Positions 7,341-32,323 of a stretch of 64,000 nt of DNA are shown piece after piece. The position numbers were made by a program, and so were the translations under genes. Each line of letters starts with the position of its first letter. The stretch's first letter is position 1. The notes under the pieces were generated by a model. That model worked only from the letters and a program-made list of their open reading frames with translations, did no database searches and was not told the origin of the DNA. Source of the DNA: Rhizobium sp. PP-CC-3A-592 (GTDB lineage Bacteria > Pseudomonadota > Alphaproteobacteria > Rhizobiales > Rhizobiaceae); contig NZ_QJSR01000002.1 in assembly GCF_003217095.1 (NCBI RefSeq), forward strand, positions 682,001 to 746,000, read 5' to 3'.

Positions 7341-7502
7341 TATCGAAGCGATGCACCTCCTCCCGCAAAGCTTCGACGTCCTTGACGATCCTATCCTCCT
7401 CCCGGGATTGTTGATGGTGGTTGCAGCTTATCCTCCTCCCGAGCTGCCAACCGGAATTGAGAGCCTGCTGCACCTCCTCCCGCAGCGGGCTCTTTTCGTT
7501 TT
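7341..7502 (+). ncRNA. trans-acting small RNA with four anti-Shine-Dalgarno hairpins (alpha-r14/NfeR1-like)
   Basis: Four successive stem-loops each expose CCTCCTCCC in the loop (7356-7364, 7395-7403, 7432-7440, 7473-7481). The stems are 7343-7349/7370-7376 (7 bp), 7384-7391/7405-7412 (8 bp with G-U pairs), 7423-7428/7442-7447 (6 bp perfect) and 7461-7471/7482-7492 (two perfect 5-bp blocks). The last is followed by TTTTCGTTTT, so it is both the fourth anti-SD loop and the terminator. This is the architecture of the rhizobial alpha-r14 sRNA family (NfeR1 in Sinorhizobium), which base-pairs with ribosome-binding sites of mRNAs for transport and nitrogen metabolism. The family assignment is by structure and motif; expression is not shown. 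Confidence 0.8.
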
Positions 7503-13329: not shown

Positions 13330-14355
13330 TTATTGCCCCGGCTTGTAGATCTGGTCGAAGACGCCCCCGTCTCCGAAGAATTTCGGCTGAGCTTCCTTCC
13401 AACCACCAAATTCGTCAATGGTCGAGAGCTTCACGTCGGCAAAGCGCTTGATATCGTTCGGATCGGCCACTTCCGGCTTGAACGGGCGATAATAATGCTT
13501 GGCGGCGATCTTCTGCCCGACATCCGAGTAGAGATACTGGAGATAGGCCTCGGCCACCTTGCGGGTGCCCTTCGTGTCCACATTGCCATCGACCAGCGCC
13601 ACCGGCGGCTCGGCCTTGATGGAAATCGAGGGGGTAACGATGTCGAAGCTGTCGGGGCCGAGTTCCTCGAGCGAGAGATAGGCCTCGTTCTCCCACGCGA
13701 TCAGCACGTCGCCAAGGCCGCGCTGGACGAAGGTCGTGGTCGCGCCGCGGGCGCCGGTGTCGAGAACCGGCACGTGCTTGAAGAGTTGGGCGACATATTC
13801 CTGCGCCTTGGCATCGTCGCCGCCGTTCTGCGCGCGGGCCCAGGCCCAGGCGGCCAGGAAGTTCCAGCGTGCGCCACCCGAGGTCTTCGGGTTCGGCGTG
13901 ATCACCTGGATGTCGTCCTTGACCAGATCGCCCCAGTCTTTGATGCCCTTCGGATTGCCCTTGCGGACGAGGAAGACGATCGTGGAGGTGTAGGGCGCGC
14001 TGTTGTTCTCGAACTTCGTCTTCCAGTCGGCGGGGATCTTGCCGCTTTCCTTGGCGATGGCGTCGATATCGGCTTCGAGCGCGAGCGTTACGACGTCGGC
14101 CTCGAGACCATCGATGACGGAGCGGGCCTGCTTGCCGGAGCCGCCGTGAGAGGTCTGGATCGTCAGCGTTTCCCCGGTGTCGGTCTTCCACTTCTCGGCG
14201 AAGGCGGCGTTGAAGTCCTTGTAGAGTTCGCGTGTCGGGTCATAGGACACATTCAGGATGGTCTGATCGGCAAAGGCGAACCCCATACCCCCGACCTGAA
14301 TGCTGGTGGCCAGCAGGGCCACCGTGAAAAAGCGGGATAGTCCCTTTGCGTTCAT
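13330..14355 (-). CDS. sbp: periplasmic sulfate-binding protein
   Basis: A 341-residue solute-binding protein with a signal peptide (about 1-29, cleavage after GFAFA). The mature part opens with the sulfate-binding family block LNVSYDPTRELYKDFNAAF and has SHGGSGKQARSVIDGLEADVVTLAL, NPKTSGGARWNFLAAW and DVLIAWENEA, all characteristic of Sbp/CysP. It delivers sulfate to CysTWA. It is first in the operon, and the promoter must lie in 14356-14500. The paralogues Sbp (sulfate) and CysP (thiosulfate) cannot be separated with certainty. Confidence 0.93.
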   Translation of the reverse strand: MNAKGLSRFFTVALLATSIQVGGMGFAFADQTILNVSYDPTRELYKDFNAAFAEKWKTDTGETLTIQTSHGGSGKQARSVIDGLEADVVTLALEADIDAIAKESGKIPADWKTKFENNSAPYTSTIVFLVRKGNPKGIKDWGDLVKDDIQVITPNPKTSGGARWNFLAAWAWARAQNGGDDAKAQEYVAQLFKHVPVLDTGARGATTTFVQRGLGDVLIAWENEAYLSLEELGPDSFDIVTPSISIKAEPPVALVDGNVDTKGTRKVAEAYLQYLYSDVGQKIAAKHYYRPFKPEVADPNDIKRFADVKLSTIDEFGGWKEAQPKFFGDGGVFDQIYKPGQ

Positions 14356-14501
14356 TGATCTCGACCTCCGTGTTGTCGGACGTACTCTAGCGAGTCTGTC
14401 GAATAGGATAACGAAGAAGTTTGCGATTGCGACGCCCTTTGGAGAAAAGTCCTGCCGTCAGGTCTCCCGCTCGCGCAAGATTGATGCAACAAGGCACTCT
14501 G

Positions 14502-14764
14502 ATACCAAGTGTCGATGATAGAAACCTATAGGACAGGCTTCTCGGGTTTTCTGGCTAGGAGAGGTTCGCAGATCGATGCTGTCGCATCGGTCAAGAGCCT
14601 CGACAACGCCAGAAAGCCCGAGAAGCCTGCCGAAGGTGGTTCAGTGCTGATCTCTGGCGGTGTTGCGATGCTTGCCCGATGCGACAGCATCGCGCTGCGC
14701 ACCGCGCCTAGCCAGAGATCAGCACTGAACCATCCTATAGGTTCCTATCATCGACACTTGGTAT
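14502..14764. repeat. 263-bp nested palindromic element with complementary hairpin loops
   Basis: The outer arms 14502-14533 and 14733-14764 are inverted 32-mers with one mismatch. Inside them are two 22-bp hairpins: A (14534-14555 with 14608-14629, one mismatch) and C (14637-14658 with 14711-14732, perfect). The loop of A holds a 17-mer (14574-14590) exactly complementary to a 17-mer in the loop of C (14676-14692). Short further complementarities join the A and C flanks. It fills most of the gap between sbp and the DUF924 gene and has no coding potential. It is most likely a mobile or amplified intergenic palindrome (MITE-like), or an element forming a cruciform or kissing-loop structure. 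Confidence 0.85.
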
Positions 14765-14783
14765 TACATCCGGCAAAGAGGGG

Positions 14784-15341
14784 ATGCCCATGGAAACGCT
14801 GTGCACGCCGCAGGAGGTCGTTTCGTTCTGGTTCGAGGATATCGACTCGGAACATTGGTACAAGGCGCACCCGGAGCTGGATGCGGAATGCGACCGGCGT
14901 TTCCGCGCCACGCATCTTGCCGTGTCGCGCAATGTGGGCCCGGACTGGCGGGAGACGGCGGAGGGACGGCTGGCGACCCTCATCCTGTTCGACCAGATGT
15001 CGCGCAATATCTATCGCGGTTCGCCGCTCGCCTTCGCCACGGATGGCCTCGCGCGCCGCGAAGCGCGGCTGGCGCTGGAAGCGGGCGCCGACCAGGCGGT
15101 CGCGCCGGTGCAGCGCGCGTTCTTCTACCTGCCGTTCGAGCATTCCGAGGCGATTTCGGACCAAGACCTTGCGGTCCAGCTCTTCACGGCGCTGGGCGAT
15201 CCCGTGCTTCTCGATTTTGCCGTGCGCCACCGCGAGATCGTCGCCCGGTTCGGTCGCTTTCCGCATCGAAACGCCATTCTCGGGCGCATGCCGAGCCCGC
15301 AGGAGGAAGCCTTCCTGCTGCAGCCGGGGTCGCGCTTCTAG
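14784..15341 (+). CDS. DUF924 family protein
   Basis: A 185-residue cytoplasmic helical protein. It opens with the family pattern VVSFWFEDIDSEHWYKAHPELD and contains LATLILFDQMSRNIYRGSPLAFATD and FFYLPFEHSE, the conserved core of DUF924 (TPR-like fold). Biochemical function is unknown. The start at 14784 begins only 20 bases after the palindromic element, so the promoter or leader may lie inside that element. It ends well before the MscS gene. Confidence 0.85.
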   Translation: MPMETLCTPQEVVSFWFEDIDSEHWYKAHPELDAECDRRFRATHLAVSRNVGPDWRETAEGRLATLILFDQMSRNIYRGSPLAFATDGLARREARLALEAGADQAVAPVQRAFFYLPFEHSEAISDQDLAVQLFTALGDPVLLDFAVRHREIVARFGRFPHRNAILGRMPSPQEEAFLLQPGSRF

Positions 15342-31701: not shown

Positions 31702-31753
31702 AGCGCGGAAGATTGACTTGATCCAGCGACGCGCCTAATCTTAGGTCTATGGA

Positions 31754-32120
31754 TGGTTCCCGTGCGGCGCGTGTCGTTCGGGAGTAAATGGGAATGCGAA
31801 GGGATGGACCCACACAGGGCATCCTCATCGCAGCCGACCCCGCGACTGTAGAACGGTCAGGGTTCGCCATCCGGTCTCGCCTCATGGGCGACGGATAATG
31901 CCGCGTGGTGCGGCTGGCGTCATCTGAAGGGCAGGGCCGGAAAAGCCACTGAAGCAGCGATGCGAGCAACCGGGGTCGGACGCCTCCTTTTCTACGAATC
32001 GTCCACCTCTTCGACATCGACCCGGCCGTCAAACGCCAGGCAAACTGTTTCGGGAAGGCGAGGCGAACCCGTTCTCAGGGTTTTGACCCTGCGTGACGCC
32101 GTGAGCCAGGAGACCTGCCA
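31754..32120 (+). ncRNA. cobalamin (AdoCbl) riboswitch upstream of cobU-cobW-cobN-cobO
   Basis: The conserved boxes occur in order: TAAATGGGAATGCG near 31785 (GGGAA box), GACCCCGCGACTGTAGA near 31832 (core CCGCAACTG), GCCACTG near 31945, CGGGAAGGCG near 32050 and the B12 box GAGCCAGGAGACCTGCC at 32103-32119. About 95 bases lie between the core and GCCACTG, and about 100 between GCCACTG and CGGGAAGG, so both variable arms are much longer than usual. It should repress the downstream cob genes when adenosylcobalamin is bound. The region 32200-32230 (short CCGGG/CCCGG stem then TTTTT) could be the expression platform. Confidence 0.88.
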
Positions 32121-32323
32121 GCCACACCGCGCCGCATCCTCATGATGCAGCGTTCCAGCGCCAGCACGGAGGTTGTCGTGGCACACGAGACGTTCGCCCA
32201 CCGGGTCTCCCGGGCCGGCGATTTTTACGCATGCGATTTCGGTGCATGCCCGGCAGGCGCCTGCAGACCCCGCGGATCGCGTTGGCTTTTACGTTATGGG
32301 AGCAGCGGGATAGCCGCGCGATC

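Follow-up and report, generated by a model that had tools for sequence, protein, structure and literature searches.

A nested palindrome near a DUF924 gene of Rhizobium sp. PP-CC-3A-592: a probable MITE-type element with a conserved two-hairpin core

A 263-bp nested palindrome occupies positions 14502-14764 of the window, the whole 64,000-nt stretch of Rhizobium sp. PP-CC-3A-592 DNA analysed here, and ends shortly before a protein-coding gene. The preliminary description of this DNA placed two readings side by side, a MITE-like mobile palindrome and a structured regulator of the downstream gene. The question raised by the locus is which of them accounts for the palindrome.

Structure of the palindrome

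The nested palindrome was confirmed by an inverted-repeat scan and by folding. Its outer arms (14502-14533 and 14733-14764) were 97% complementary and enclosed two hairpins, each with a 22-bp stem and a loop of 52 nt. The first, designated beta, spans 14534-14629 on the plus strand, with a stem (14534-14555/14608-14629) of 95% complementarity and its loop at 14556-14607; the second, alpha, lies inverted on the minus strand at 14637-14732, with a stem (14637-14658/14711-14732) of 100% complementarity and its loop at 14659-14710. The hairpins are separated by the linker CCGAAGG (14630-14636) and together also gave a longer inverted match of 64 nt at 81%. The RNA fold predicted for 14490-14780 was a three-way structure with a minimum free energy of -193.1 kcal/mol, compared with a mean of -94.4 (sd 5.2) for 200 shuffled sequences (z = -19).

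The loops had been described as carrying 17-mers exactly complementary to each other, and the match itself is correct: CGATGCTGTCGCATCGG lies in the beta loop at 14574-14590 and its complement in the alpha loop at 14676-14692. Each 17-mer, however, forms a small hairpin of its own, CGATGC/GCATCG around TGTC, with about 4 nt left free for kissing. The match arises because one palindromic loop occurs twice in inverted orientation; since the two hairpins are inverted relatives, complementarity at their tips is expected. Among 37 non-redundant elements of the family described below, the longest word common to both loops was 17 nt only in the window element, 15 nt in two elements and 4-7 nt in 24. 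As long loop-loop words were not kept, a conserved kissing loop, and with it the pseudoknot suggested earlier, was rejected.

The gene downstream (14784-15341, plus strand) matched PF06041, in agreement with its naming as a DUF924 gene about 20 bp after the element. A divergent gene on the minus strand at 13330-14355 encodes a solute-binding protein (SBP_bac_11). Both are ORFs with domain matches and lie outside the element.

Copies and insertion sites in the genus

The genome of the strain (G000, 5.12 Mb in 27 contigs) contained three full copies of the 263 bp with identities of 100, 99 and 98%, a diverged and shortened copy (C1:1032345), a truncated copy (C1:481482), arm-only forms at C1:745442, C7:48821 and C8:40126 and, among the matches listed, two further single ends (C1:1143575 and C2:916240). 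In the arm-only form, a palindrome of 54 bp, the two arms have the core CCTATAGG in common. Elements with arms and only one hairpin, 158-169 bp long, were also found, no fewer than nine among those listed. The preliminary description had considered that a single-copy, unconserved structure lacking compensatory substitutions would be a chance relic; the copies found in the genome search show that it is not single-copy.

Flank searches were made in six other species of the genus. The sites of L001 and L002 were empty in 6 of 6 congeners and that of L003 in the three with both flanks matched (G001, G004 and G005), the remaining three giving only one flank match. The junction at L002 reads GCATG-TAA-[TACC...GGTA]-TAA-CCCGG, and its empty site, GCATGTAACCCGG, was exact in G003 and G005, carried one substitution each in G001 and G002, and was more different in G004. 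Comparison of L002 with the empty loci gives a unit of 261 bp and an exact duplication of 3 bp, TAA.

The mobile unit in the window is 14503-14763 (TACC...GGTA, 261 bp). It begins with the left arm, TACCAAGTGTCGATGATAGAAACCTATAGGA, at 14503-14533 on the plus strand, which is common to the 54-bp arm-only palindromes, and ends with the right arm at 14733-14763 on the minus strand. Thus the 263-bp palindrome is present as first reported, but its outermost A and T are part of the flanking TNA triplets, TGA at 14500-14502 and TTA at 14764-14766. The triplets were unequal in two of the three full copies, TGA/TTA in the window copy and TAA/TTA in L003. The empty site in G001 being TTA, one triplet of the window copy probably changed after insertion, the left TGA being a target-site remnant. 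The window element is a recent insertion. G000, G001 and G002, which represent three species, carry one arm-only form between shared flanks (L011, L037 and L025); this form is thus older than the full copies and probably predates the split of these species.

The two-hairpin core and its ends in other bacteria

BLAST matches to the element were obtained in 17 of 101 genomes, comprising its own and those of relatives, and in the complete genome G099 one of the elements gave 76 matches, both strands and fragments being counted. An inverted-repeat scan of 50 match places showed that elements in other families are built alike, although their arm sequences are unrelated: an arm, the beta hairpin, a short linker, the alpha hairpin in inverted orientation and the second arm. 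Forty hairpins (alignment A1, which includes one hairpin of L058 with reversed loop orientation) served to build R1, a covariance model of one hairpin, and in 25 of its 27 pairs one or more sequences differed on both sides and still paired. R1 scored 88.8 bits (E 2.3e-20) on the beta hairpin of the window and 95.4 bits (E 4.6e-22, minus strand) on the alpha hairpin, both of which are among the 40. In L058 (616-711), the alpha hairpin has its loop turned round with respect to the stem, as if the stem arms had recombined with each other.

At E <= 1e-5, R1 was detected in 66 of 397 genomes of the order, 44 of 385 of the class and 29 of 398 of a phylum sample, 15 of these 29 being outside the class; the counts are lower bounds, with strict filters and 10 candidates scored per genome, and come from overlapping samples that include G000. 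Twenty match places outside the class, from 10 of the 15 genomes, were examined. All 20 held the R1 hairpin, by which they had been chosen, a second, inverted hairpin was found in 10 at E <= 0.5, and enclosing arms about 199-233 nt apart were present in 18. In genome G1370, the flanks listed were TTA/TTA (L386, L388 and L389), TAA/TAA (L387) and TAA/TTA (L390), and the ends GAAC or GAGC. Bearers of the loop core among the matches listed included Rhizobium sp. NFR03, Neorhizobium galegae, Xaviernesmea rhizosphaerae, Hoeflea poritis, Roseibium sediminicola, Anderseniella MAGs and Inquilinus limosus. The element is thus a member of a large, diverged family and is not unconserved.

A script-based scan of the gathered loci, which needed arms plus a fuzzy loop core and to which other designs were invisible, detected 143 arm-enclosed elements; 82 of them passed the length and orientation filters and yielded 44 non-redundant elements. 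Alignment A2 comprised 39 of the 44, with L052, L076, L216, L243 and L307 excluded as too diverged. In its 84 pairs, 94.2% of the cells were paired. Shuffles reached 70.1% and slid structures 33-39%, the last comparison being favoured by a structure that was derived from the same alignment and that includes, of the alpha stem, only the inner part. Both-side changes occurred in 75 of the 84 pairs, and the covariation score was 0.636 against 0.183 (sd 0.007). These results indicate that the three-hairpin shape was preserved while most of the paired letters changed, and compensatory substitutions are plentiful.

Near-pairs were counted in 37 of the 44 elements, among which related rows are not independent, so that significance is overstated. 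Read in the orientation of their own loops, the hairpin stems had more G.U than A.C near-pairs (beta 59:23, alpha 78:45), with a per-element excess of G.U in 25:4 for beta (8 ties) and 22:9 for alpha (6 ties). The outer arms showed 19 G.U and 28 A.C near-pairs and no significant strand bias, which is what a site recognised at either end as double-stranded DNA should show. Beta and alpha, being inverted, favour different strands, so that any one transcript can have only one of them in its favoured sense. The bias suggests that the hairpins function as folded single strands of DNA or RNA, one per strand, with statistics weakened by shared ancestry.

Two types of ends were recognized, with 23 of the 143 elements left out of the flank counts for unclear ends and near-copies in one genome counted apart. 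TACC...GGTA ends were found in 44 elements, 43 of which had both flanks; TNA stood on both sides in 37 of the 43, and 31 had identical triplets, all of them TNA. TAG...CTA ends were found in 76 elements, and Y[TA...TA]R (YTAR) in 65 of the 75 with flanks; these ends were placed by their TA, and only the neighbouring Y and R test the rule. We infer that TAG-type elements duplicate TA at the target; in a search for the empty site of one of them, L073, no syntenic relative was found among the genomes tried. TNA and TA are both target rules of groups within the IS5 family.

On a quickly built maximum-likelihood tree of 116 cores (34 TACC-type and 82 TAG-type), in which support was weak at many forks and some branches were long, eight changes of end type were needed, three of them forced by well-supported (starred) branches. 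Compared with a shuffled mean of about 30, eight changes mean that the end types are also clustered on the tree. One starred clade of 18 rows with the same core joined 11 TACC-type elements, most from Anderseniella MAGs, with 7 TAG-type elements from other MAGs. One core is thus combined with ends that follow different target rules, TNA and TA in YTAR.

The window copy carries an end-to-end open frame, as did 30 of the 44 non-redundant elements compared with 19.5 in shuffles. Codon-position bias was absent in 47 same-length pairs of TAG-type elements (404, 389 and 352 differences), and a protein-coding element was rejected on this ground; the excess of open frames is read as shared ancestry and base composition.

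Two further variants were seen among the elements. In L028 (1618-1659), an arm-only palindrome of TAGAGC type lies inside a hairpin of a TACC-type element, at its conserved CTAG. The hairpin tips of G051 elements (L016, L031, L042 and L043) bear extra self-complementary inserts resembling TCCTCGGGTTTAAACCCGAGGA, and the elements are 282-313 bp long.

Mode of movement and comparison with known systems

The element has the defining features of a MITE that were tested, parent element apart. It has terminal inverted repeats (32-nt arms, 97% complementary), target-site duplication with an empty site (TAA at L002; identical triplets in 31 of 43 TACC-type elements) and multiple copies (full, partial and arm-only), and it is non-coding, with no transposase gene in its 261 bp. 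The earlier reading as a MITE-like mobile palindrome is thus borne out. The flank counts also gave the TNA and YTAR targets of MITEs mobilised by IS5 transposases, the TA duplication being deduced. We consider it likely that the palindrome is a MITE-type non-autonomous transposon whose arms are recognised in trans by an IS5-family DDE transposase, whose hairpins are structured cargo and whose position beside DUF924 is incidental. The enzyme would read the outer arms as double-stranded DNA; that insertion duplicates a 3-bp TNA target is shown by the empty sites and flanks. The two inner hairpins would be a conserved cargo that acts when folded as single-stranded DNA or RNA and that probably helps the element to persist or move; their inverted arrangement would let either strand offer one hairpin in the same reading direction.

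Movement in trans by IS5-family transposases through the outer arms is probable from the target rules and from the transposases present. The IS5-type domain PF13340 was found in 10 of 14 element-bearing genomes (nine above the cut-off and one below) and was absent in four, and several of its loci had YTAR-type ends. TACC ends were lacking in all inverted repeats listed at 30 PF13340 loci, some of which gave no such repeat. PF13359 matched in 3 of 11 genomes, none of them the strain's own, and yielded no parent; in a pattern search for an autonomous parent, TNATACCAAGTSTCG occurred in 15 of 297 genomes of the family, with no IS-like spacing among the first places listed per genome, and no parent element was found in plasmid and phage searches. 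The best match between an IS end and an element end was 11 of 12 bases, between the IS L327 and the TAG-type L383 from outside the class, and was equalled or passed in 7 of 200 shuffle rounds. At least 9 of 12 bases matched an IS end in 10 of 165 element ends, whereas about 2.5 would be expected; the two ends of an element entered this count separately. For TAG-type elements, this resemblance is only suggestive.

Regulation of DUF924 by a cis-acting structured RNA with a kissing-loop pseudoknot would agree with the distance of about 20 bp between the element end and the start codon and with the extreme folding (z = -19). However, the same flanks occur without the element in 6 of 6 congeners, and further copies have other flanks, one of them on a plasmid beside a helix-turn-helix regulator and a hypothetical gene. 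In addition, the long loop-loop complementarity is not kept across the 37 elements, and neither a sigma-70-like promoter nor an intrinsic terminator was found at 14300-14900. The regulator proposed earlier was rejected on the empty sites and is extremely unlikely; the DUF924 neighbourhood is incidental to the element. A known Rfam RNA was also rejected: one search gave no match at the element, and another gave a single match (E 0.49) far below its gathering score. Elsewhere in the window, Rfam matches were obtained to the small RNA ar14 (7376-7497, 86.3 bits) and the cobalamin riboswitch (31737-32136, 43.9 bits).

Two other readings concern the family as a whole. The first is a repeat with a function for the host, such as a site for RNA processing or DNA organisation, which host selection maintains and whose mobility is only a side effect. 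It would explain why the loop core is conserved across families and beyond the class, why covariation is strong and why the core is kept while the ends change. The patchy presence (66 of 397 genomes of the order), the recent insertions with duplications and the absence of a clear gene-orientation preference (22 convergent, 31 tandem and 15 divergent of 68, from noisy ORF calls) speak against this reading, which is unlikely. The second is a repeat that, like REP, BIME and REPIN sequences, is mobilised by a tyrosine (HUH) transposase of the REP-associated kind, which reads hairpins as single strands. It would fit the preference for G.U over A.C in one orientation of the stems and the resemblance of inverted hairpin pairs to BIMEs. 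Nevertheless, 3-bp target duplications and precise terminal inverted repeats point to a DDE enzyme, and 96-nt hairpins within arms are far from REPs of 20-40 bp; movement by an HUH enzyme is very unlikely.

Beyond the reading as a MITE-type element, it is possible, though doubtful, that the two-hairpin core defines an unrecognised mobile superfamily, in which ends were repeatedly exchanged and transposases switched (TNA, YTAR/TA), and in which the hairpins would serve as folded single strands, one per strand, in movement or in protection during transcription or replication in either direction. Small palindromic repeats of rhizobia and their relatives are often dismissed as noise in RNA-gene searches. 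If these proposals are true, many such repeats would be one old structured element family that spans Alphaproteobacteria and beyond, its shape under strong selection and its ends exchangeable. It would be a test case for gene-free elements that outlive or change their transposases, the covariance model could be used to annotate its members, and RNA gene finders would be warned that such elements resemble excellent structured RNAs.

Prokaryotic MITEs such as Correia/NEMIS, RUP and ERIC, as far as the available text describes them (PMC2229807), are likewise short, without coding signal, flanked by terminal inverted repeats and a target duplication, and present in several copies. Here, by contrast, the inner 200 bp fold into two hairpins whose pairing has been maintained by compensatory substitutions across family boundaries and even outside the class. 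One core carries different ends and target rules, and the searches gave no parent. The target rules of IS5-family insertion sequences, YTAR/TA or TNA, are the same, whereas the element contains no transposase gene and its TACC ends match none of the IS ends found. RIME1 and RIME2, the Rhizobium-specific intergenic mosaic elements, are also rhizobial intergenic palindromic repeats; they are reportedly 108-109 bp long, with two palindromes, and limited to Rhizobiaceae. The element, at 261 bp with three nested helices and occurring far outside Rhizobiaceae, is set apart from RIME by this description, in size and in number of palindromes.

CIR of Caulobacter and Brucella (PMC2229807) and Bru-RS (PMC2267715, PMC2266754) are alphaproteobacterial intergenic palindromic repeats, CIR having two hairpin arms and a linker. 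In the available portions of these sources, the repeats measure about 103-118 bp, end-to-end pairing is not part of the description of CIR, which has GANTC at a loop, and IS711, which targets YTAR and duplicates TA (PMC2266754), prefers Bru-RS. By these descriptions, the 261-bp element with end-to-end pairing differs from both in size and from CIR in pairing and so falls outside CIR/Bru-RS; GANTC occurs in an arm in 35 of 120 elements here. Br-REP1 of Bradyrhizobium shares with the element three palindromes, described in the available part of the report as three stem-loops in a row around CCGGAATCTCGAGATTCCGG, with no nesting or target duplication mentioned there (PMC5082802). REPs, in the available text, are palindromes of 20-40 bp (PMC3733652), and REP/BIME membership was rejected for an element in which 32-bp arms enclose two 96-nt hairpins. 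No element of the same design was recognised in the literature searched, which left most subscription papers outside and is no proof of novelty. In size or design, the family stands apart from RIME, CIR, Bru-RS, REP/BIME and Br-REP1, for RIME, CIR and Bru-RS as judged by description.
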